Below, piece after piece: positions 17,725 to 31,453 of a stretch of DNA of 64,000 bases. The stretch's first letter is position 1. Each line of letters starts with the position of its first letter. Position numbers and translations under genes: made by a program. The notes under the pieces are model-generated. The model was not told where the DNA came from. It ran no database searches and saw only the letters and a program-made list of their open reading frames with translations. Source of the stretch: Nitrospira sp. (GTDB lineage Bacteria; Nitrospirota; Nitrospiria; Nitrospirales; Nitrospiraceae); assembly GCA_029194725.1 (NCBI GenBank), contig JARFXQ010000011.1:62001-126000 (forward strand). Direction: 5' to 3'.

Positions 17725-18606
17725 ATGGTTGTCTCTGCATCCCGTCGATTGGAACCTCTAGAAGTCTCCCGTTCTCTCGGGAAAGCCCTCATGAAACTCT
17801 ATGATTATCCGCATCCCCGTCGACCCGGACGAACAATCCGCGGCTATGATCGACCACATGCCATGCGAACGGCGAAGATGTGCGTGACCGTCGCCGATCG
17901 ATTAGGCCATCCGCGCAACCGGATACGGCGCTATCACGTTGCCTGCCTTTTGCACGACCTGGGCCGTGCCGGCCTCGATCGACAACTCTTTGGAAGGATT
18001 TGGTCTTGGGCCAGGCAACGGGGCATTCCGACGAGGCCTCGCGAGTGGCGCGCCATTCACCCGAGAACGACGTATGGCAGGGAAACAGAAGCCTTCGTTT
18101 CGTTGTATCGCCGGGATCTGATCGCCTCCGGCGTACCGATGGACAGGTGGGCTGTCGAGCAGATCGAAATGCGACTGGGCTACGCTCGGCGCCTGGCAAG
18201 ACGATTGCGTGAGGTGAAGCCAAGGTTGAAGACACTCGGCGTCGAGTGGGAACCGTGGATGCAGCAAGTGATGCTGTATTACTATTACCCGGAGCAGCTG
18301 GCTAAGGCAAATGCCTGGGTGCGGCAACTGGCGGAGATCCTCGTCGCCTGCGAACAGTTTGAGGCCTACAGCAATCAGCGCCGGGGACGCGATTATTATG
18401 CCCGGAAGAAAGAGAGCCTGGCGGAGGCGTTTGCCTATCTCGACAAGCTTGGCCAAGAAGGCATTCTGAGCGGTCAAGTCTTGCGCGCAGTGAGGGCGCT
18501 GACAGCAGAAGGGGTGTTCGATTCCATTTTGGAAGAGGCGCGAGGCGAGTCGCTGACCCGAAGCGACCGCCGCTACCTTCGCAGCCTCGAGGATCGGAGA
18601 CTATGA
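17725..18606 (+). CDS. HD-domain phosphohydrolase-like protein
   Basis: Cytoplasmic protein with the metal-binding HD signature: His45 in YDRPHAMRTA and His77-Asp78 in HVACLLHDLGRAG. A later conserved Asp of HD domains is not obvious, so activity is uncertain. The C-terminal half is helical, with LVACEQFEAYSNQRRGRDYY recalling HD-GYP-like proteins where the domain continues with DxF/Yxx(T/S)xR-type sequence. The true start may be ATG 17791 (MKLYDYPHPR); neither has a strong ribosome site. Its stop overlaps the yjbQ start by four bases (ATGA), so it heads a transcription unit running into the proteasome genes. Confidence 0.75.
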   Translation: MVVSASRRLEPLEVSRSLGKALMKLYDYPHPRRPGRTIRGYDRPHAMRTAKMCVTVADRLGHPRNRIRRYHVACLLHDLGRAGLDRQLFGRIWSWARQRGIPTRPREWRAIHPRTTYGRETEAFVSLYRRDLIASGVPMDRWAVEQIEMRLGYARRLARRLREVKPRLKTLGVEWEPWMQQVMLYYYYPEQLAKANAWVRQLAEILVACEQFEAYSNQRRGRDYYARKKESLAEAFAYLDKLGQEGILSGQVLRAVRALTAEGVFDSILEEARGESLTRSDRRYLRSLEDRRL

Positions 18607-19028
18607 TGGCTGTCCACACCGTTTCCCTGACGATCCGTATGGAAGGCGACACACGGGTCGAAAACATCACGAAATCCGTTGCCGATGCCTTGGCTGGTTC
18701 CAATCTTACAGCTGGAATTACGACGGTCTTTGTCAGGCACACCACCGCCTCCGTCATGATCATTGAGGATGAACCAGGGATTCGCGCAGACACGAAAGCG
18801 TTTTGGGACCGGCTCATTCCTCCTGACCCCCGCTGGCGGCACAACACGGTCAATCCCGGCGAAGACAACGGCCACAGCCATCTTCGAGGGCAACTTCAAG
18901 GGCCTTCCATCACTATTCCATTTGCAGCCGGCAGACTGCTGCTCGGCACCTGGCAACAAATCGTGGTGGTGGATTTCGATACCCGCGCCAGAACCCGTGA
19001 ACTCGTCGTGCAGGTTCTTGGTGAATAG
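18603..19028 (+). CDS. YjbQ/UPF0047 family protein
   Basis: Member of the secondary thiamine-phosphate-synthase-enzyme family (YjbQ), whose physiological role is still unclear. Conserved family features are present: TTVFVRHTTASVMIIEDEPG and NGHSHLRGQLQGPSITIPF with the metal-ligand histidines, and GTWQQIVVVDFD near the C-terminus. Length (141 aa) fits. It overlaps the HD gene by four bases and the protease gene by eight, so three genes are tightly coupled. Confidence 0.88.
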   Translation: MMAVHTVSLTIRMEGDTRVENITKSVADALAGSNLTAGITTVFVRHTTASVMIIEDEPGIRADTKAFWDRLIPPDPRWRHNTVNPGEDNGHSHLRGQLQGPSITIPFAAGRLLLGTWQQIVVVDFDTRARTRELVVQVLGE

Positions 19029-20139
19029 CCACGCCAAATCCCTGACGCTACTTCTGGTGACGTTGATGCTTGGCTCACCGATTCATGCGGCGGAATGGGG
19101 CAAGCCGCTTGGTGCCGTCTATGACGGGCCTGAAGGGAAGCCCCGCCCGGTGACGCCCTCTCCGGTTGAACTCAGCGCCGATGAACGATCGACGATCGCG
19201 GTGTTTGAACGTGCGACCAAATCCGTCGTGTTCATTGCCAACACGGCAATACAACAGGACATCTGGTCGCTCAACGTCATGGAAGTACCCCAAGGGTCAG
19301 GGTCCGGTTTCGTGTGGAGCAAGCAAGGCCACATCGTCACCAACTTTCATGTGATCTACGGCGCCGATGCGATCAAGGTTACGTTGGCAGATCGGAGCGA
19401 GCACGAAGCGAAGCTGGTCGGCGCCGACCCCGATCACGATCTGGCGGTACTGCAAATTCAGGTACCGGACGGTCACCTGGAGCCGATGGCGATCGGTGCC
19501 TCACATGACTTGCGTGTGGGACAGAAGGTACTTGCGATCGGGAATCCATTCGGGCTCGATCATACCTTGACGACCGGAGTCGTGAGTGCGTTGGGGCGAA
19601 CCATCAAATCCCTGTCGAATCGGACGATTGAAGGTGTGATCCAGACCGATGCGGCGATCAATCCCGGTAATTCTGGCGGTCCGCTTCTCGATGGGGCTGG
19701 GCGATTGATCGGCGTCAACACGCAAATCATGAGTCCGAGCGGAGCCTACGCCGGAATTGGTTTCGCCGTTCCTGTCGACATGGTGAATCGGATCGTTCCG
19801 GAACTCATCAAGCACGGCAAGCTCATCCGCCCGGGGTTGGGCGTCTCTCTTGTGCCGGACGCAATGGCGAAGCGATGGGGGATCAACGGAGTCATCATCG
19901 GCAAGGTGACACGCGGCGGTGCCGCCGATCGTGCTGGGCTCAAGGGGGCTCGTGAAACCAGGATCGGGCGGATCCGACTCGGCGACGTTATCGTCTCGAT
20001 TGCTGGAAAGACGGTGACCACCATTGATGACCTGATGGATGTGATGGAGGCGCACAAAGTCGGTGAAGAAGTGAGCGTGGAAATTGTGCGGGAAAATCGG
20101 CGTGAAAGAGTGTCGGTGACCCTTCAGGCGGTCAATTAG
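19021..20139 (+). CDS. HtrA/DegP-like periplasmic serine protease
   Basis: Trypsin-like S1C protease with one PDZ domain, expected in the periplasm. The GTG at 19021 gives a good signal peptide (SLTLLLVTLMLGSPIHAAEW); longer in-frame starts would run back through yjbQ. Catalytic triad residues are His110 (HIVTNFHV), Asp140 (DPDHDLAVLQI) and Ser218 (INPGNSGGPL). The PDZ domain covers roughly residues 275-370 (ending VEIVRENRRERVSVTLQ). Length 372 aa suits a single-PDZ DegS/HhoB-type enzyme. It lies 65 bases upstream of mpa on the same strand, so a second protein-quality-control protease may be expressed with the proteasome. Confidence 0.88.
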   Translation: MNSHAKSLTLLLVTLMLGSPIHAAEWGKPLGAVYDGPEGKPRPVTPSPVELSADERSTIAVFERATKSVVFIANTAIQQDIWSLNVMEVPQGSGSGFVWSKQGHIVTNFHVIYGADAIKVTLADRSEHEAKLVGADPDHDLAVLQIQVPDGHLEPMAIGASHDLRVGQKVLAIGNPFGLDHTLTTGVVSALGRTIKSLSNRTIEGVIQTDAAINPGNSGGPLLDGAGRLIGVNTQIMSPSGAYAGIGFAVPVDMVNRIVPELIKHGKLIRPGLGVSLVPDAMAKRWGINGVIIGKVTRGGAADRAGLKGARETRIGRIRLGDVIVSIAGKTVTTIDDLMDVMEAHKVGEEVSVEIVRENRRERVSVTLQAVN

Positions 20140-20204: not shown

Positions 20205-21941
20205 ATGAGTGATCGAAGACCTCCTGATCAAGATGAATCCAAGAATCGGAGCGATGAGCCATCGCCGAGGCTCGGCACCGATCCAATTGAATTGATTGAG
20301 CAATGTCTGGTCACATTTCCGGAGGGGGATCCTCGGCAGAAGTTGCTATACAAGTTGCGTCATGCGGTGACGCTGTCTCACGCCGCCCATCAACAACGCG
20401 AGCTGGAATTCAAGAAAGTGAGCGAGGTCGTCGCCAAACTGACGGCACCGGCCAATCGTATCGGCACCTTACTTGATGTTCCAGATGAGGGACTCGCCCG
20501 CATCGTCGTCGGTGGGGCCGAGTATTATGCCAACGTGGACCCCCGGGTCCCCGGTACGGATCTTAAAATCGGAACGCAGGTTCTAGTCAACGAAGCCTAC
20601 GCAGTGATCAGGACGCTCGGGTACGATCGGAATGGCCCTATCTTGAAACTGGCCGAAGCTATGCCTGATGGGCGATTGCGATTCGACCAGGAGATGGGCC
20701 GGCAGTCGTTGATCTTGCAGAGATCGACGGATCTCGGCGACGTGGAGCTCAAGGCGGGCGATGAAATCCGCGTCGATCCCGGCTATCGAGTGGCAATCGA
20801 GAAGCTCACCGATCGCAAGCCACGTCGTCATGTCCTTGATGCTCCACCCAAGGTCACGTGGGAACAGATCGGCGGACAGAACGAGGCGATCACGGCAATC
20901 AGAAAAGCGATTGAATATCCGTTGTTGCATGGGGAGACCTTCGAACGGTTCAAGTTTTCCCAACCGAAGGGCTTTCTTCTCTATGGCCCACCGGGATGTG
21001 GGAAGACGCTCATCGGCCAAGCGGCAGCCAGTAGTTTGGCCAAACTGGTCGGCGAATCCGAACAAGAGCACCGGCTCGATCGAGACCGGCATCCGCATGT
21101 GACAAGCGGAGCATTCCTGCACGTGAAAGGGCCTGAAATCCTCAACATGTGGCTGGGGGAATCGGAGCGGATGGTTCGCGATCTCTTTGAACAGGCTCGG
21201 ACGAGACGCAAGGACGGCGCCTTGCCGTTTATTTTCATTGACGAGGCGGAGTCGATTTTGGGGACAAGGCGTGCCATGCGTTCCTTCAATATCTCGAATA
21301 CGCTCGTGCCGATGTTTTGCAGCGAAATGGATGGAATCGAATCGCTCCGTGACGTCGTCATTATTTTAGCTTCCAACCGCCCTGATTTGATCGATCCGGC
21401 GGTGCTGCGCCCAGGCCGGATCGATCGGAAGATCAAAGTGAGTCGCCCGAACAAGGAGGCTGCAGCCGAGATCCTGAAGGTATATTTGACCGCGGATCTG
21501 CCGGTGGACCCAACGCTGGTGAAGGAGCGAGGTGGCGGGCAATCTCAGGCGGTGGCCTCACTCGTCGAAGACATCATTGAGTCGATCTTCCGTCGAACGG
21601 AAGATAATCGGCTTCTGTCGATTCGATTCAGGAACGGGCAAAACAAGGTGCTGTACCGCGGCGATTTGGTGAGCGGAGCTATCTTGGCCTCGATCGTGCA
21701 ACGTGCCAAGGAAAAGGCGATCGATCGTACCGTTCAGTCGGGGCAACAGTCAGGACTGCAAGCCAAAGACCTCTTGGATTCAGTCTCAGAGGAATTTCGA
21801 GAGGGTGACATGTTGCCGCCTGACGATGCTGCGGAGGAGTGGCTGAAGCTGCTGGATCATCACCCGGAACAAGTGATCGGAGTTTCCTCGTTCCGGCGGG
21901 GGCGTCAGACGGAAGAACGACCCGTGAATCAGATCATCTGA
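20205..21941 (+). CDS. mpa: Proteasomal AAA+ unfoldase (Mpa/ARC)
   Basis: Ring ATPase that recognises tagged proteins, unfolds them and feeds them to the 20S proteasome. The order of domains is N-terminal coiled coil (residues ~45-80, the tag-binding region), double OB-fold interdomain (~85-200), then an AAA+ module with Walker A GPPGCGKT at 261-268, Walker B FIFIDEAE at 342-349 and the Arg-finger region NRPDLIDPAVLRPGRID. I chose ATG 20205 over the TTG at 20178. The product ends in PVNQII, not in the GQYL tail by which mycobacterial Mpa docks onto the proteasome. It is the first of six proteasome genes in a row. Confidence 0.93.
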   Translation: MSDRRPPDQDESKNRSDEPSPRLGTDPIELIEQCLVTFPEGDPRQKLLYKLRHAVTLSHAAHQQRELEFKKVSEVVAKLTAPANRIGTLLDVPDEGLARIVVGGAEYYANVDPRVPGTDLKIGTQVLVNEAYAVIRTLGYDRNGPILKLAEAMPDGRLRFDQEMGRQSLILQRSTDLGDVELKAGDEIRVDPGYRVAIEKLTDRKPRRHVLDAPPKVTWEQIGGQNEAITAIRKAIEYPLLHGETFERFKFSQPKGFLLYGPPGCGKTLIGQAAASSLAKLVGESEQEHRLDRDRHPHVTSGAFLHVKGPEILNMWLGESERMVRDLFEQARTRRKDGALPFIFIDEAESILGTRRAMRSFNISNTLVPMFCSEMDGIESLRDVVIILASNRPDLIDPAVLRPGRIDRKIKVSRPNKEAAAEILKVYLTADLPVDPTLVKERGGGQSQAVASLVEDIIESIFRRTEDNRLLSIRFRNGQNKVLYRGDLVSGAILASIVQRAKEKAIDRTVQSGQQSGLQAKDLLDSVSEEFREGDMLPPDDAAEEWLKLLDHHPEQVIGVSSFRRGRQTEERPVNQII

Positions 21942-22027
21942 AGACGCCACATACGAGAGGTAAAGGTGAACGGTTGATGGCCCGAATGGTGGCTGGTTCA
22001 TGCATTACCGTTCACCTCTAACGAACC

Positions 22028-23554
22028 ATGCGTCTTTTTGGCATTGAAACCGAGTACGGAATCACGAGGGATGACGTACCGGAGATGGATCCGGTCGTGG
22101 AGTCGATGGAATTGGTGCGAGCCTATCTGGAAGGTTCCTTTGAACGGCGATGGGATTATGCCGGCGAAGATCCGCACGAAGATGCTCGTGGCTTTCGTGT
22201 CTCCGGTCTCCAGCAAGATAAGGAAGAAGATGAGTTTGCGAAGGTGGATGCTCACCGCCCCTTTTCGTTCCATGAAATGAAGAGCGATTTAGTGTTGCCG
22301 AACGGGGCGCGATTCTACAACGACCATACCCATCCGGAGTATTCGACTCCTGAATGCCGGACCCTGAGAGACCTGCTGGCTCAGGATCGTGCGGGGGAAC
22401 GTATCGTTCTACGCGCTGCCCAGCGGCGTAATCAGGTGCTCGGAGGAGGTCACGTCCGACTGTATAAGAACAACACGGATTTCCATGGTCACAGTTACGG
22501 ATGTCACGATAACTATCTTGTCTCGCGGGCTGTTCCCTTTCCGGCTCTCGTTGCCGGGTTGGTGCCGTTCCTGGTAAGTCGACAAGTGACCGCTGGCGCG
22601 GGAAAGGTCGGGACTGAAGCGCAAGAGTCTGGTTATGTTCCAGGGAAGTATCAGCTCTCGCAGCGCGCCGACTTTATGGAGGCGGAGTTGGGCGTCGACA
22701 CGATGCATAACCGGCCGATTCTCAACACCCGAGACGAACCCCATGCCGATCGGAGGAAATACCGACGGCTTCACCTCATCATCGGCGATGCCAACATGTG
22801 CGAGTATGCGACAGCGCTGAAGGTGGGCACGACCAGACTCGTACTCGACCTCATTGAGCGAGGGGCTATGCCTGACATCGAGCTGGATCATCCGGTGGCA
22901 GCAGTGAAACAGTTGTCGCGGGATCCGGACCTGAAAGCCGTGGTTCGTCTCAAAAGCGGACGGAGGCTTTCCGCTTTAGAGCTTCAAGAGAGTTACTGCG
23001 AGGCGGCAGGTCGCGAGTTGGCCGGATCCGACGAGGAGTCTGATTGGCTGTTGGCGCAATGGGGTGAGACTTTACGCTTGTTGGCGCAAGACCGCTCGCA
23101 GTTGGTGGGGAAGCTGGACTGGGTCACGAAACAGTGGTTGCTCGAGACCTTCATGCAGGAAGAGCATCTTGGCTGGGACGATCCCTGGTTGGCCAGTCTG
23201 GACTTGGAGTATCACAATGTGGATCCGAAACAGGGCCTCTATTTGGGATTGGAAGCGGAAGGGAAAGCTTGGCGGATGACGACCGACGATGCCATCGAGG
23301 AGGCGCTTCGGAGCGGGCCAGAAGATACTCGTGGCGGGCTCCGCGGACTGTGCGTGCAGCGGTTTCCGAATCAGATTAAGTCGATGCAATGGGAAGGGAT
23401 TCAATTCGCGGGCGGGCTTCGCACCCATCATTTGGACATGGGGGACCTTTTCAATCCTCAAGAAGTCCGACGGTGTATGGGCATCTTCCAGCATGCCCGT
23501 TCACCGGCTGATGCGCTGGCAGCGTGGAGCCGCGGAAAGGATATGGAAACATGA
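22028..23554 (+). CDS. dop: Depupylase/deamidase-type enzyme Dop
   Basis: Member of the glutamine-synthetase-like PafA/Dop family; Dop removes the modifier from substrates and, where the modifier ends in Gln, deamidates it. The N-terminal GIETEYGI motif, the stretch RRWDYAGEDPHEDARGF, which is typical of Dop and absent from PafA, and the catalytic Asp99 in RFYNDHTHPEYS support Dop. After DARGF comes a charged loop (residues ~57-88) longer than in mycobacterial Dop. Later family motifs include YKNNTDFHGHSYGCHDNYL, INTRDEPHAD-type NTRDEPHADRRKYRRLH and GDANMCEYATALKVGT. It overlaps pup by four bases (ATGA). Confidence 0.9.
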   Translation: MRLFGIETEYGITRDDVPEMDPVVESMELVRAYLEGSFERRWDYAGEDPHEDARGFRVSGLQQDKEEDEFAKVDAHRPFSFHEMKSDLVLPNGARFYNDHTHPEYSTPECRTLRDLLAQDRAGERIVLRAAQRRNQVLGGGHVRLYKNNTDFHGHSYGCHDNYLVSRAVPFPALVAGLVPFLVSRQVTAGAGKVGTEAQESGYVPGKYQLSQRADFMEAELGVDTMHNRPILNTRDEPHADRRKYRRLHLIIGDANMCEYATALKVGTTRLVLDLIERGAMPDIELDHPVAAVKQLSRDPDLKAVVRLKSGRRLSALELQESYCEAAGRELAGSDEESDWLLAQWGETLRLLAQDRSQLVGKLDWVTKQWLLETFMQEEHLGWDDPWLASLDLEYHNVDPKQGLYLGLEAEGKAWRMTTDDAIEEALRSGPEDTRGGLRGLCVQRFPNQIKSMQWEGIQFAGGLRTHHLDMGDLFNPQEVRRCMGIFQHARSPADALAAWSRGKDMET

Positions 23555-23742
23555 AACACAGCATGATGCCGGAGCGGCGCGAGGGGCCAGTCGATCCCAT
23601 GCCAAAATCTCCCAGTCCGGAAGATGGAAGTGGGCCACGCCGCCCAGATACGGGATCACCGGACAAGGATTATCTGATGAAGCGGATGCGCAAAGTTGAT
23701 CCCAAACAAGCGGAGCGGTATCGGCAGAGGACGGGTGAATAG
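23551..23742 (+). CDS. pup: Ubiquitin-like protein modifier UBact/Pup
   Basis: Small disordered modifier that would be joined through its C-terminal Glu to substrate lysines. The 63 residues are rich in Pro, Asp, Arg and Gly, with a helical C-terminal half (DKDYLMKRMRKVDPKQAERY) that should bind the Mpa coiled coil, and end in RQRTGE. The terminal Glu means no deamidation step is needed, unlike the Gln-ended mycobacterial Pup. This sequence type is described as UBact in Nitrospirae and other Gram-negative phyla. Position between dop and prcB, with ATGA overlap to dop, confirms the identity. Confidence 0.93.
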   Translation: MKHSMMPERREGPVDPMPKSPSPEDGSGPRRPDTGSPDKDYLMKRMRKVDPKQAERYRQRTGE

Positions 23743-23748
23743 TGAAGC

Positions 23749-23807
23749 AGTGCTGAGTGCCGAGCGGGCAGACTCAGAGTGATACTGTTTCAGTCTGACT
23801 CAGCACT
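23749..23807 (+). promoter_or_regulatory. Large hairpin between pup and prcB
   Basis: Perfect arms AGTGCTGAGT (23749-23758) and ACTCAGCACT (23798-23807) plus a second pair CAGACT (23769-23774) and AGTCTG (23792-23797) form a 16-bp stem with a 10-base bulge on one side and a 17-base loop. There is no U-run after it, so it is not a standard terminator. It occupies nearly the whole 80-base gap between the modifier and the first 20S gene, a natural place for an mRNA-processing or attenuation element. Confidence 0.6.
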
Positions 23808-23822
23808 GGGAGACCGGTAGCT

Positions 23823-24590
23823 ATGCAAAGCGATTTCTATCAGCTCTTGAAAGCACAAGGCTACATCCTCGGAGTATCGGGACAGGCGGGAGCAAGGCAG
23901 GAACTGACGACCGCCACAACCATCCTTGCGTTCAAGTACCGCGACGGCGTTCTAGTTGCCGGGGATCGGCGGGCGACAGCCGGAAATATGGTGATGTACG
24001 ACCGCACGGACAAGGTATTGGAGATCGATCGGTCTAGTGTCATGGCGATCGCCGGAGTGCCTGCGACTGCGTATGAAATGGCTCGGATCCTCGAACATTC
24101 TTTCAAGTATTACCGGCGGACACAGCTTCAAGAGCTCAGCTTTGAGGGAAAGCTCCGCGCTCTATCTAAATTGCTGAAGGAGAATGTCGCTGCGGCCTTA
24201 GCAGGGACCGGAGCTGTGGCACCGATCTTTGCCGGTTACGATGCCGGACAAGAAGCAGCGAAAATCTACTTTTACGATATCCTCGGCGCCGAGTTCGAGG
24301 GAGTGGAATATGCGGTCTCCGGGTCCGGCTCATCGACGATCCGAGGAATCTTGCACTACTTGAATACATGGGGAGAACAACCGCTGAGTGCGATGCCGGA
24401 AGAGCAGGCAACTGTTCAGGCGTTGCGACTGTTGACGAGTGCCGCAGAATTCGACAGCGCGACCGGCGGAGTCAACCGCGAGGCCGGCCTCTATCCGGTC
24501 ATTAAGTTCATTACGGCCGGTGGTGTCAGGGTGATGCCGGATCTTCAGCTCCGATCGCTGTTTGAATCAAGAGTTGCTCGAAGTGTGTAG
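23823..24590 (+). CDS. prcB: 20S proteasome beta subunit
   Basis: Catalytic subunit of the core particle, an N-terminal threonine hydrolase. A propeptide of about 31 residues precedes the sequence TTILAFKYRDGVLVAGDRRA; Thr32 is the expected active-site residue after self-processing. Lys equivalent to Lys33 lies in DRTDKVLEID, and Asp in the GDRRAT stretch matches the Asp17 position. The residue before the cleavage site is Ala, where mycobacterial PrcB has Gly. Length 255 aa fits. It is followed after 11 bases by prcA. Confidence 0.93.
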   Translation: MQSDFYQLLKAQGYILGVSGQAGARQELTTATTILAFKYRDGVLVAGDRRATAGNMVMYDRTDKVLEIDRSSVMAIAGVPATAYEMARILEHSFKYYRRTQLQELSFEGKLRALSKLLKENVAAALAGTGAVAPIFAGYDAGQEAAKIYFYDILGAEFEGVEYAVSGSGSSTIRGILHYLNTWGEQPLSAMPEEQATVQALRLLTSAAEFDSATGGVNREAGLYPVIKFITAGGVRVMPDLQLRSLFESRVARSV

Positions 24591-24601
24591 GGGCATTAGT
24601 T

Positions 24602-25411
24602 ATGTATGAAGAGCCATATCGATGGGTGGAAGCGGTCGGAAATCGTCGGCAATATCTCGACGATCAGCTTAAGGAGGGGACACCAGTCGTCGGGGTCACG
24701 TACGAGCGCGGCATTCTGCTCATGACGATGAGCAAAGGTACTCCCAAGCTATATGAGATTTACGATCGCTTAGCTCTGGGAGGTATGGGACACCCGGCCG
24801 ACCTGGAGAAGCTGCGTTTCAATCTGTTGGAAATGGCTCATGTCGAAGGATTCAATCGTTCCGCTTCCGATGTGACCGGGAGTCGCCTGGTAAAGTATGG
24901 CATCGCGCCCGTCATCAAACAAGCATTCGAAGAGGTGTTCAAAGCCCCCTTCATCGTGAAAATGTTGCTGGCAGAGTTGGGCCAAAAATCAGGGAAAGAC
25001 GGTTTCTTGACGATCAACTATGACGGGACTTTTGAGGAAAGGAGCCAGTCTGCGGTGCTTGCCGCTACGTCGGTCGTCGAGCAGAAGATGATCGAGTATG
25101 TCCGACGGCAGTCCATTGTGTCTTTGAAAGACGCTGTGGATGTGTCAATTCGTACGTGGGCAGTCGGTGATCGAGCGCAACGATCAGCACTGGAGGATGG
25201 CGAAGGCCGTGACGAGGCAAAGCCCGATTCTGATCAGGAAATGATTGGTGCGGAGACACTCTACGCGCATGTACGTCGGTGCATTCCCGAAAAGACGATC
25301 GAATGCGTTCTGCTTGATCGACAGGTGCAAGGACCATCCAAGTATCGAGCACTCGAGGCGGACGAGTTGGAAGCAGTGCTCCCGACGGATCTGAACCCAT
25401 CACTCTCGTGA
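24602..25411 (+). CDS. prcA: 20S proteasome alpha subunit
   Basis: Forms the outer heptameric rings that gate the core and receive the unfoldase. The product is clearly of the bacterial alpha-type: YEEPYRWVEAVGNRRQYLDDQ at the N-terminus, then VVGVTYERGILLMTMS and KLYEIYDRLALGGMGHPADL. It lacks the catalytic Thr. The C-terminal part after residue ~200 is acidic and contains an insert (ALEDGEGRDEAKPDSDQ) that looks disordered. Length 269 aa is typical. It sits four bases before pafA. Confidence 0.9.
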   Translation: MYEEPYRWVEAVGNRRQYLDDQLKEGTPVVGVTYERGILLMTMSKGTPKLYEIYDRLALGGMGHPADLEKLRFNLLEMAHVEGFNRSASDVTGSRLVKYGIAPVIKQAFEEVFKAPFIVKMLLAELGQKSGKDGFLTINYDGTFEERSQSAVLAATSVVEQKMIEYVRRQSIVSLKDAVDVSIRTWAVGDRAQRSALEDGEGRDEAKPDSDQEMIGAETLYAHVRRCIPEKTIECVLLDRQVQGPSKYRALEADELEAVLPTDLNPSLS

Positions 25412-25415
25412 GCTC

Positions 25416-26903
25416 ATGTTAAACCGTATCTTCGGCTTGGAGACTGAATACGGGCTCTTGATTCACGAGGATCACCCTGATCATTCACCGACCTGGTTTG
25501 CCCGTAAGATCCGTGACCAGCTGTTCCATGTGCAGCGAAGAGGCGTCCTCGACCTCCACCATCGTGGGCATGACGAGCCTCCCGGCAATGGAGGATTTCT
25601 CGCCAACGCCGGGCGAATCTATTTGGATATGGGGCATTTGGAGTATGCCTCGCCGGAATGTCATTCTCTCACCGATGTCGTGGCGTCTGATCGTGCCGGA
25701 GATCTCCTGCTGCAGCAAGCTCTCGAAGAGCTCGGCTTCTCAGAGCAAGTGTCCTTGATCAAGAACAACATCGACCATGAAACCGACGCGACATTCGGCT
25801 CGCATGAGAACTACCTGGTCTCTCGGCGGTTTCCTTTTTCGAGGCGCGGGTTGGCTCCGCTCGTGACTTTTCTTGTGACCCGGCAGATTTTTACCGGCTC
25901 TGGGCGTGTTGGTTCCGCCGCTCCACAAGATGCCTGGATTCAGACGGATCGGTTGATCGTTCCACGCTCGGCTCTTGGTGCGCACCAGGTATCGGATCTA
26001 TCCTTTCAAATTTCCCAACGGGCCGACTACATCGTGAACGATTTCTTCGAATGGGTGCAACATAATCGGGCGATTGTGAACACGAGAGACGAGCCGTTGG
26101 CTGATCCCAATCAATACCGAAGGATTCATTTACTGCTGGGTGATTCCAACATGGCCGAATATGCGACAGCATTGAAGCTCGGAACCACGGGGCTGGTGCT
26201 GCAGCTCATTGAGGAAGGGCATGCACCTCAGGATTTGGAGATCGACGAGCCAGTGGAAGCGCTCCAAGAGATTTCCCAGGATCAAGAGCGGCGCTGGTTG
26301 GTCCAGTTGCGGTCTCAAAAGACAATGTCGGCTGTGGATATTCAAGCACGGTTCCTTGACTGTGCAGCCCGGCATTGCAAGGGGCAGGATGAAGAAACCG
26401 ATTGGGTGCTTGCCCAATGGGCATCGGTGCTCCATGACCTGGGCGACGATTATCAAAAGCTCGTCGGCCGTGTCGACTGGGCCTCCAAACTGTGGCTATT
26501 GGAATGCTTTCGAGAAGCGGAACATGTCGACTGGGTCGATCCCATGATGAAAAGTTTGGATTTGGAATATCATAATCTGAATCGCCAGAAGGGGTTGTAC
26601 CATGGATTACTGGAAGAGGGGCGTGCGCCTCGTTTGACAACAGACCGCCTCATCCATCTGGCGATGGAAACGGCGCCGAAAAACACGCGTGCCTATGGTC
26701 GTAGTGAGTTGATCAGACATCTCCTGAATGACCCGCCACCCTCAGCGTTGGACCAGCTTCCAGCGCCTGATGGATTGTTCCCTCCCTATGTCATCAACTG
26801 GTCGATTTTCCAAGTGCGCGGTCGTGCACCGTTTCCCATGCCAGATCCGTTCAGGACATATCTGGAGGATGTGCGGACCCACCTGCAAAGCGTGATTGTC
26901 TAG
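25416..26903 (+). CDS. pafA: Modifier (Pup/UBact) ligase PafA
   Basis: Glutamine-synthetase-like ligase that activates the C-terminal Glu of the modifier with ATP and joins it to substrate lysines. Motifs are GLETEYGL at the N-terminus, catalytic Asp71 in RIYLDMGHLEYASPEC, LIKNNIDHETDATFGSHENY, VNTRDEPLADPNQYRRIH and GDSNMAEYATALKLGT. The C-terminus reads MPDPFRTYLEDVRTHLQ, matching the PafA ending around DPFRAVDERV, and the Dop-specific WDY motif is absent; this is why I call it PafA and the gene at 22028 Dop. An insertion of about 17 residues (HHRGHDEPPGNGG region) precedes the active-site strand. Confidence 0.9.
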   Translation: MLNRIFGLETEYGLLIHEDHPDHSPTWFARKIRDQLFHVQRRGVLDLHHRGHDEPPGNGGFLANAGRIYLDMGHLEYASPECHSLTDVVASDRAGDLLLQQALEELGFSEQVSLIKNNIDHETDATFGSHENYLVSRRFPFSRRGLAPLVTFLVTRQIFTGSGRVGSAAPQDAWIQTDRLIVPRSALGAHQVSDLSFQISQRADYIVNDFFEWVQHNRAIVNTRDEPLADPNQYRRIHLLLGDSNMAEYATALKLGTTGLVLQLIEEGHAPQDLEIDEPVEALQEISQDQERRWLVQLRSQKTMSAVDIQARFLDCAARHCKGQDEETDWVLAQWASVLHDLGDDYQKLVGRVDWASKLWLLECFREAEHVDWVDPMMKSLDLEYHNLNRQKGLYHGLLEEGRAPRLTTDRLIHLAMETAPKNTRAYGRSELIRHLLNDPPPSALDQLPAPDGLFPPYVINWSIFQVRGRAPFPMPDPFRTYLEDVRTHLQSVIV

Positions 26904-29522: not shown

Positions 29523-29801
29523 TCAACCTTGATAGGCTTGCCCCAAAGCAGCGGATTCTCCCTTTTTCGACATGAGCTGACCGCTTGCGCTGACAGCTTG
29601 CATCACGATCGCTTCATGTTTGGCGGCGTTGCAGACGACCACACATAGTTCGCAGCCTTTGCAACGGTCGATGAACACTTCAGCCACCATCTTGGTCGTG
29701 TTCAAGTCCAAACAATTAGCCTCCGGACAGTACATGATGCACAGCCGACAACCTTTCTTGGCCGTACATTTCTCATCGATGACTTGTGCGACATTATACA
29801 T
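29523..29801 (-). CDS. 2-oxoacid:ferredoxin oxidoreductase, delta (ferredoxin-like) subunit
   Basis: Carries two [4Fe-4S] clusters that take electrons from the TPP site to ferredoxin. Cys motifs are CTAKKGCRLCIMYCPEANC and CKGCELCVVVC, both complete apart from small spacing differences in the first. I place the start at 29801 (YNVAQVIDEKC); an extension to 29876 would overlap the gamma gene. It is the last gene of a five-gene operon. Confidence 0.85.
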   Translation of the reverse strand: MYNVAQVIDEKCTAKKGCRLCIMYCPEANCLDLNTTKMVAEVFIDRCKGCELCVVVCNAAKHEAIVMQAVSASGQLMSKKGESAALGQAYQG

Positions 29802-29818
29802 GTAAGGTGATCCTTCTC

Positions 29819-30526
29819 TTACGCAGCGACGGCCGGATTGCCGACCCGCAATTCGATCTTGTTCTTTTCCGCCCACTCGCTGGCGATATCATAAGCACGT
29901 TTGACGGTTGCCAAATTCTTTGCCAGAAGCATTTCCTTCTTCGCGAACTTTTTCTTGATAGCTTCGTCCAGAGAGGCGGTACCGCCCGAGGCGACGAACT
30001 TCTTCCCGAATCGTTCCTGGAGCGCGCCATCTAAGGCTTCCATCGATACGCATTTGGTGATACCGGCGACGGAACCGATCATGGTCATGTTCGTCGACAG
30101 CTCCGTTCCGGCTATTTCAATCGCGATCTGTGTACCTGGAATATAGAATACGGCAACGTTCAAGTCTTCAAGCCGTTGGATATCCTCTTCGGAAAGCAGT
30201 GGAACATCGGAGTTGATGATGACCACGCCGCCGTCCTTGATGCCTGAATAGAACGGCATGGTGTAACTTTTACCCATTGTAATGACCTGTGGATGGAAAA
30301 CCTGGATCACATCCGGAAACACAAGCTCTCCTCGATCATAGATCCGTTCAATGCCGATACGGCAATAGCTCTCTGCCGGAGCCATGCGTTTCTCAGCACC
30401 AAAAAATGGGTTCGAAATGGAAAACTTTCCATCCCGATTGGCGGCCATGGCCATGACGTGAGCAGCAGTGACGGCACCTTGTCCACCTAACCCTGACATC
30501 CGGATGTTAAGTCGCTTCTTGATCAT
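29819..30526 (-). CDS. 2-oxoacid:ferredoxin oxidoreductase, gamma subunit
   Basis: Gamma domain of the enzyme that makes or breaks pyruvate or 2-oxoglutarate with CoA and ferredoxin. The N-terminus RLNIRMSGLGGQGAVTAAHV is the classic GxGGQG motif of gamma subunits, and FFGAEKRMAPAESYCRI matches the conserved following segment. Start at 30526 is preceded by GGGAGGCC. The C-terminal ~60 residues form a charged helical extension typical of the five-subunit enzymes. Confidence 0.88.
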   Translation of the reverse strand: MIKKRLNIRMSGLGGQGAVTAAHVMAMAANRDGKFSISNPFFGAEKRMAPAESYCRIGIERIYDRGELVFPDVIQVFHPQVITMGKSYTMPFYSGIKDGGVVIINSDVPLLSEEDIQRLEDLNVAVFYIPGTQIAIEIAGTELSTNMTMIGSVAGITKCVSMEALDGALQERFGKKFVASGGTASLDEAIKKKFAKKEMLLAKNLATVKRAYDIASEWAEKNKIELRVGNPAVAA

Positions 30527-30541
30527 GAATGGCCTCCCGGT

Positions 30542-31453
30542 CTAATTGGCTTGTGCCTGTGCGGCCAACTGCTTAGCGGCTGCCTTCCGTTCCTTGTCCT
30601 TGGCAGCTAGTTCAGCCAACAGCTGCTTCGCTGGATCGCTGATGTATTCCTTGTACGCGAACCGCTCAGTCGGCTTTTCAGAATCACGCATTTCTTGTAG
30701 GCCTTCCATGCTGTTCTTGCCGATTTCGAGAATACATGGAGTGTAGAGCTGGAGATAGGTCGGGCCGATTTCTCGAGCAATATGTACGGCGTTGCGGATA
30801 ACCTTCTCGACCAGTGACGGTTTGCTGACCGTGCAGTTCACTACATAGTGACAACCGGACTCACGGGCTATCTCCGGCAAGCGCACCTTATCGAACAACT
30901 TCCCGACCGGCGCCATTTTAGCGACGAAGCCTTTCTGCATGAGCCCGCTCTCCTGCCCCCCGGTGTTGGCATAGAGTTCGTTGTCGAAGCAGATGGTGGT
31001 GAATTTCTCCTGTCGGAACCAAGCCTGCAACGTCATATCCAGACCGATGTCGACGGTCGCACCATCACCGGCGAGGACGACGACGTCTTTTACACGGCCG
31101 GGGAATCGGACGCTGAGGGCACGTTTAAGACCCGATGCGATCGCGTTTTGGTTTCCAAACAACGAGTGAATGTTGTGGACGGCAACCATTGGAAACACCA
31201 GACTGGTACAGCCGGTCGAGCCGACCATGACCGTATCCTCTGGATTGGGGAGGGAGGCCAATATATAGCGGAAGGCCATGGACTCGGGGCAACCCGCGCA
31301 GAGCGAATGCTGTTCAATCAGTTCCTTAGATGTCCCGATGTCTTTCCACCCTCGGTCATCCTTGCCGTAGGTAGCACTTTTCACGAGGTCCTGATAATCA
31401 GACGGCATGATGTCGTATAGGGCTTCGGATATTTGAATGCGTTCCTTGCTCAT
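30542..31453 (-). CDS. 2-oxoacid:ferredoxin oxidoreductase, beta (TPP-binding) subunit
   Basis: Holds thiamine pyrophosphate and one [4Fe-4S] cluster. The TPP motif runs AGDGATVDIGLDMTLQAW to CFDNELYANTGGQ; cysteine ligands include CAGCPES near residue 53. It begins after GAGGAGGCC and is 303 aa, within the usual range. In the reductive TCA cycle this subunit does the carboxylation chemistry. Whether the substrate is pyruvate or 2-oxoglutarate cannot be read from the sequence by eye. Confidence 0.9.
   Translation of the reverse strand: MSKERIQISEALYDIMPSDYQDLVKSATYGKDDRGWKDIGTSKELIEQHSLCAGCPESMAFRYILASLPNPEDTVMVGSTGCTSLVFPMVAVHNIHSLFGNQNAIASGLKRALSVRFPGRVKDVVVLAGDGATVDIGLDMTLQAWFRQEKFTTICFDNELYANTGGQESGLMQKGFVAKMAPVGKLFDKVRLPEIARESGCHYVVNCTVSKPSLVEKVIRNAVHIAREIGPTYLQLYTPCILEIGKNSMEGLQEMRDSEKPTERFAYKEYISDPAKQLLAELAAKDKERKAAAKQLAAQAQAN

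Follow-up and report, generated by a model that had tools for sequence, protein, structure and literature searches.

Background

Do six consecutive genes in a draft Nitrospira sp. genome encode a working system for tagging proteins with the modifier UBact and degrading them in a proteasome, and how would such a system coexist with the homologous Pup-type system that most relatives of this organism also carry? The genes (mpa, dop, UBact, prcB, prcA, and pafA, in this order) occupy positions 20205-26903 on the forward strand of a 64-kb window, by which we mean the whole stretch of DNA that was analysed. Here we show that UBact and Pup systems coexist in Nitrospirota genomes, and that the two differ in the sequences of their tags, enzymes, ATPase tails, and docking pockets. 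We consider it probable that the operon forms a working UBact-proteasome system of a known kind, and that in most relatives it stands beside a second, complete Pup system, from which we propose that it is kept apart.

UBact clusters are known from Leptospirillum/Nitrospirae, where they were described as a Pup system resembling that of actinobacteria (PMC2588565, PMC3511204). The operon shares with the UBact family and its cluster (NF033388, PF20513) the modifier sequence, the GE/GQ end, the gene order, and all six components; taken alone, nothing distinguishes it from known UBact clusters, and it is ordinary for its lineage. In the open-access papers that we searched, we found no description of (i) an I/V-X ATPase tail with an altered pocket or (ii) the regular presence of a complete Pup system alongside UBact. 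Both the Tyr-free dock and the regular pairing may be reported elsewhere.

Methods

The source assembly is a draft of 3.6 Mb in 57 contigs, with a completeness of 78%. A scan of the genome collection kept 80 loci, labelled Nitrospira or Nitrospirae with the exception of two labelled Nitrosospira; the UBact-type comparison set consists of 60 related loci, the window counted in. Coexistence of the two systems was surveyed in 395 Nitrospirota genomes, four ligase-family genes being the most that were scored per genome. Active sites were checked by alignment to Acidothermus Dop using residue positions from PMC8599861, and docking-pocket positions were taken from PMC9599533 and compared between 20 Pup-type PrcA and 60 UBact-type rows.

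Results and discussion

Components of the UBact operon

The six open reading frames lie exactly where the original prediction had placed them (Table 1), with small gaps and a single ATGA overlap; the intergenic spacing is, in order, 86, -4, 80, 11, and 4 bases. The complete order mpa-dop-UBact-prcB-prcA-pafA recurs in 56 of the 60 loci (including L069, where a long open frame had put prcB first in the automatic listing), while three are broken by contig ends and one, L065, carries a prcB-prcA deletion. An arrangement that recurs so regularly marks a conserved gene cluster and rules out a chance neighbourhood, and gene spacing and order are what suggest co-expression.

The modifier scores 76.6 bits against NF033388 (cut-off 35) and 71.1 against PF20513 (cut-off 27.8), and has the RTG[EQ]-type end beside dop and proteasome genes by which UBact is recognized; its closest matches among the named genomes of the 80 loci are from Nitrospira, at 97 and 95% identity. 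No match to the Pup models PF05639 and TIGR03687 was found at E values up to 1, and neither UBact nor Pup tags match the family models of the other. All five remaining proteins match their expected Pfam families. Family scores and alignments thus agree with the earlier proposal that the UBact system is complete and of a type already described for Nitrospirae. A second UBact candidate in another genome (G141, that of locus L041) was rejected, as it has no partner genes nearby, scores weakly, and is a low-complexity open reading frame that extends past the motif.

The window Dop scores 557 bits against PF03136 and 470.5 against TIGR03688, the latter under the equivalog cut-off of 492.3. Glu8, Glu10, Arg90, Tyr92, Asp94, Glu99, His155, Arg227, His241, and Trp453 are kept throughout the UBact-type Dop and PafA, apart from one Dop row that is gapped at Glu10. 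Trp47 of the Dop-loop, together with Asp94, Arg227, and His241, is found in all 60 UBact-type Dop, the window included. Among UBact-type PafA, the catalytic residues are present in 59/59 and the Dop-loop region is missing in 59/59. By alignment the catalytic residues are therefore intact, and the loss that had been named as grounds for rejecting the system was not seen. The window PafA scores 433 bits against PF03136, 319.9 against TIGR03686 (cut-off 551.3), and 327 against TIGR03688 (also below cut-off), and its residues at positions diagnostic for PafA versus Dop (PMC7947786 Table 1) are a mixture of PafA-like (F84, A101), Dop-like, and unique states; it is probably the UBact ligase.

Turning to the core, Thr1, Asp17, and Lys33 occur in 59/59 UBact-type PrcB, the window among them. 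PrcA reaches only 65 bits against its NCBIfam equivalog model (cut-off 139), and the best solved matches to its predicted fold are the alpha subunits of Mycobacterium tuberculosis (Mtb) and Rhodococcus (Foldseek E 5e-8, probability 1.00, from a modest model with a predicted local distance difference test (pLDDT) score of 64). With the catalytic residues of Dop, PafA, and PrcB intact and the PrcA fold matched, every part of the system looks functional as far as sequence and structural model can indicate. In L065 (G131:C37, 4764-10426), the deletion joins the 5' part of prcB and the 3' part of prcA in one frame of 180 codons; that genome still has a Pup-type core.

A second, Pup-type system in relatives

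The original prediction had passed over what we regard as the larger point, namely that nearly all relatives carry a second Pup system. UBact was found in 133 of the surveyed genomes and canonical Pup in 183; both tags are present in 123, and 116 of these have four Pup-ligase-family genes. Some relatives have one system only. Both clusters and pup are seen in the complete genomes of N. moscoviensis (NZ_CP011801; L116 = G408) and Ca. N. defluvii (FP929003; L169 = G409), and the two genomes with the UBact most similar to that of the window have four ligases, Pup, and both systems.

Twenty second loci (L173-L192) contain mpa-dop-prcB-prcA-pafA in identical order, and their PrcB score near 300 bits against TIGR03690. 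These clusters have their gene order and homologous parts in common with the UBact operon; they differ in having a canonical Pup (ending ...EEFVKNYVQKGGE) and Mpa ending in GHYL/GHYF, where the UBact operon has UBact and Mpa ending in I/V-X. In five loci of more distant families (L183-L186, L190), which are basal members, the classical pup lies between dop and prcB, while in Nitrospira (L173-L182, L198-L211) it has been displaced by tens to hundreds of kb from its cluster (approximately 50 kb in N. moscoviensis and 213 kb in Ca. N. defluvii). A Nitrospira Pup-type cluster lacking Pup was considered and rejected, since pup is located elsewhere in the genome.

The window's own genome encodes a canonical Pup of 65 residues that ends in VQKGGE and matches the Pup models (G000:C12:123633-123821; L197:9098-9322). 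A Pup-type cluster was not found in this 78%-complete assembly, nor was a second Mpa or ligase pair. Synteny of contig C12 with a related genome (G204) stops at 164273, short of the Pup-type cluster, and searches of the window's genome with the flanks of the G204 cluster, one of them made without a positive control, returned short repeat-like matches only. Because four ligases and Pup are present in the two genomes nearest by UBact, the simplest explanation is an assembly gap, with loss as the alternative. In another genome (G290), a contig ends within the Pup-type cluster. Two Pup matches each were observed in G407 (the genome of L094; C73:9335 and C79:8249), G069, and G106, which may reflect a further copy of pup or a duplication in the assembly.

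Charge of the tags and their enzymes

Net charge over the last 35 residues ranges from +4 to +7 in UBact (60 loci), whereas it ranges from -2 to -9 in ten Pup sequences of Nitrospirota; UBact and Pup of the window's genome have +5 and -4, respectively. The enzymes acting on the tags differ as well. Over 425 shared columns, mean charge is -14.5 in UBact-type and -3.0 in Pup-type Dop, and -19.2 and -6.1, respectively, in PafA, which puts the UBact-type enzymes 11 to 13 charges to the acidic side of their Pup-type counterparts. This acidic excess is clearest at Acidothermus positions 361-430, in Dop and PafA alike, while Mpa and PrcB, each taken whole, show almost no charge difference between systems.

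Proposed docking of the ATPase on the core

The window Mpa has a short coiled coil, a double OB domain, and an AAA domain with the pore loop W-L-G. It scores 439 bits against TIGR03689, under the cut-off of 505, and can be aligned to Mtb Mpa (5kwa) over 82-569. Core opening in M. tuberculosis depends on the GQYL end of Mpa (PMC12288473); the penultimate Tyr of this Mpa touches one of two alpha-subunit residues, Arg26 or Glu119, and Lys52 is able to bind the C-terminal carboxylate (PMC9599533). All 20 Pup-type Mpa end in GHYL or GHYF and thus have the penultimate Tyr. Among the 58 UBact-type Mpa, the penultimate residue is Ile in 51, Val in six, and Lys in one, with Ile, Val, or Glu following where it is Ile or Val; the sole tail without a hydrophobic end, PKN, is that of L065, the locus in which the UBact-type core genes have collapsed through the deletion.

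The pocket differs in parallel. The position of Glu119 is hydrophobic in the UBact-type PrcA and that of Lys52 is retained (Table 1), the lone exceptional UBact-type row at both being the fused L065 protein. The Arg26 position is basic in 20/20 Pup-type PrcA and mixed in the UBact-type, and Asp144 of the pocket is conserved in both core types. These changes in tail and pocket would be consistent with docking by a hydrophobic side chain in place of Tyr, with the contact between carboxylate and lysine retained.

Relative to the actinobacterial Pup-proteasome, then, the window operon has the same chemistry, catalytic residues, component list, and gene order, but differs in (i) a tag of opposite charge that Pup models do not recognize, (ii) an Mpa without GQYL, (iii) a PrcA pocket without Glu119 and the conserved Arg26, and (iv) proteins scoring under equivalog cut-offs. 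A search for a Bpa-like activator, made without a positive control, found none.

Proposed mechanism and alternative explanations

In the mechanism that we propose, PafA would use ATP to phosphorylate the C-terminal Glu of UBact and join UBact to target lysines, and Dop would strip the tag, being able to deamidate a Gln end if present. A hexamer of the Mpa-like ATPase would capture UBact-tagged proteins, unfold them, and pass them into a PrcB14-PrcA14 barrel, where the N-terminal threonines of PrcB would cut them. We infer this division of labour (conjugation by PafA, reversal by Dop, Mpa feeding PrcAB) from homology and from the preserved catalytic residues. Insulation from the Pup system would come about through the opposite charges of the tags, matched by a more acidic Dop and PafA in the UBact system, and through a rewired dock between ATPase and core, in which Mpa would offer a hydrophobic I/V pair or I/V-Glu to a pocket that has lost the Tyr-contact residues and kept the lysine. 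The coexistence of UBact and Pup, their opposite charge, and the different docking ends suggest two parallel degradation channels per cell, and we infer from the sequence differences that the two are physically insulated. For the full proposal, that Nitrospira maintains two mutually insulated channels, each with its own tag, ligase, deligase, unfoldase, and core, the UBact core being opened by a Tyr-free tail fitted to an altered alpha pocket, we judge the chances to be evenly balanced.

Several observations weigh against this proposal. Expression, conjugation, and degradation in the window organism are deduced from its genes, and its own assembly contains one cluster plus pup alone. Since the compared rows share ancestry, the counts given above are not counts of independent events. 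Five of the six proteins, all but UBact, fall under NCBIfam equivalog cut-offs, and the UBact-side PafA scores much alike against the PafA and Dop models (320 vs 327 bits), so that its proposed ligase role is based on the absent Dop-loop and on elimination. Nor is the contrast in charge absolute: the Dop of Acidothermus acts on acidic Pup and is itself at -10, which makes the acidity of the UBact-side enzymes suggestive only. The test of charged columns was weak (18 vs 7, p 0.04), and no clear charge reversal was found in the coiled coil of Mpa. Finally, the lost tail of L065 comes from a single draft genome and is anecdotal.

Insulation would be absent if enzymes, ATPases, or cores were shared, with UBact and Pup serving as two tags for one common pool. 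Such sharing would agree with the fact that the enzymes are all members of a single family and have an active site in common, that Lys52 and Asp144 are kept in both cores, and that some relatives have one system only. However, tag charge, ATPase tail, and pocket differ consistently, and each system has retained a full gene set of its own, which together make a common pool rather improbable. The missing Tyr raises another question, namely whether the tail of the UBact-type ATPase provides weak docking or none, in which case UBact would be mainly a reversible modifier or depend on an adaptor, the core being used otherwise. While the docking-motif Tyr is missing in 58/58 UBact-type Mpa, the GQYL end is essential for core opening in M. 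tuberculosis (PMC12288473), and some actinobacteria pupylate without a proteasome in the locus (PMC3511204), the UBact-type tail shows a conservation of its own (I/V-I/V or I/V-E), the pocket still has its lysine, and the active site of PrcB is intact in 59/59; we therefore regard a failed or weak dock as decidedly unlikely, and retain the Tyr-free dock as the preferred reading.

Two further alternatives concern Dop and PafA themselves. The original prediction held that Dop should act only as a depupylase here, because the modifier already ends in Glu. The window modifier indeed has the GE end, as do 49/60 loci in all (11/60 end in Gln), and it is correct that such an end needs no deamidation: Pup of C. 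glutamicum also ends in Glu, and dop is retained there for tag removal (PMC3511204). As a statement about the enzyme, however, the claim overreaches. Across the 60 loci, at least eight switches between Glu and Gln map on the Dop tree, and none is accompanied by a loss in Dop, whose catalytic residues and Dop-loop Trp are invariant whichever end UBact has, and deamidation and depupylation proceed at one active site by one mechanism (PMC7947786), so that Dop is expected to retain both. The Glu end would thus be no evidence for loss of the deamidase reaction, and we find a Dop restricted to depupylation unlikely. It could also be that the dop/pafA pair arose twice, once per tag, the split into ligase and hydrolase being independent. 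An unrooted tree does group UBact-type Dop and PafA against the Pup-type pair, with a support of 97 in the Shimodaira-Hasegawa-like approximate likelihood ratio test (SH-aLRT), and PafA as one clade gave p 0.056 in the approximately unbiased (AU) test, by which a single clade is not rejected. Common adaptation to one tag can, however, draw the members of a pair together in a tree; both clusters follow the order mpa-dop-(tag)-prcB-prcA-pafA, and the Dop-loop with W47 is found in both Dop sets and in neither PafA set. A double origin therefore seems very unlikely, and from gene order and Dop-loop we favour a single dop/pafA duplication that would have preceded the split of the UBact and Pup systems.

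Operon layout and neighbouring genes

Coordinates of the genes and of the docking residues are given in Table 1. No promoter-like site for the operon stands out. The gap between UBact and prcB (23743-23822) contains a stable hairpin (-32.2 kcal/mol, z -2.45, with 3/200 shuffles equally good) that has the paired arms CAGTGCTGAGT/ACTCAGCACTG and lacks a T run; it is a possible attenuator or processing site. The gap between mpa and dop (21942-22027) holds an inverted repeat, GGTGAACGGT/ACCGTTCACC, that folds no better than chance (z -1.29). Neither repeat has dispersed copies elsewhere inside the window.

Table 1. Genes of the UBact operon and docking residues, in window positions.
Feature	Position	Strand	Description
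mpa	20205..21941	+	UBact-type proteasomal AAA ATPase, 578 residues; Pfam OB N/C and AAA
Mpa C-terminal tail	21927..21938	+	Asn-Gln-Ile-Ile; replaces the GQYL/HbYX docking motif
dop	22028..23554	+	depupylase/deamidase homologue, 508 residues, with Dop-loop
UBact	23551..23742	+	63 residues, basic C-terminal half, ends ...RYRQRTGE; ATGA overlap with dop
prcB	23823..24590	+	proteasome beta subunit, 255 residues, 31-residue propeptide before Thr1; PF00227 88 bits
prcA	24602..25411	+	divergent proteasome alpha subunit, 269 residues; PF00227 24.0 bits (cut-off 22.4)
PrcA Lys49 (Mtb Lys52)	24746..24748	+	carboxylate-binding pocket lysine; K in 59/60 UBact-type and 20/20 Pup-type
PrcA Ile118 (Mtb Glu119)	24953..24955	+	I/V/L in 59/60 UBact-type, E in 20/20 Pup-type
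pafA	25416..26903	+	candidate UBact ligase, 495 residues, without Dop-loop

Upstream of the operon, on the same strand (17725-20139), lie genes for an HD-domain-like protein and a UPF0047 protein (18603-19028), and a frame resembling HtrA/DegP-type serine proteases that stops at 20139, 65 bases 5' of mpa. On the reverse strand, 29523-31453 encodes 2-oxoacid:ferredoxin oxidoreductase-like subunits and a small ferredoxin-like protein.

Conclusions

Substrates of the two systems should be distinguishable. The GE remnant on lysine by which the original prediction would have detected UBact conjugates needs correction, as trypsin would leave Thr-Gly-Glu (+287.11 Da); Pup should leave Gly-Gly-Glu (+243.09 Da). 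Given these distinct remnants, a single proteomics run on cultured Nitrospira could map both target sets and thereby indicate the purpose of each system. If the proposal made here is true, the UBact-type dock would be a natural exception to the penultimate-Tyr rule for proteasome activators, and the presence of two complete ubiquitin-like systems in one bacterial cytoplasm would provide a natural test of how cross-talk is avoided.

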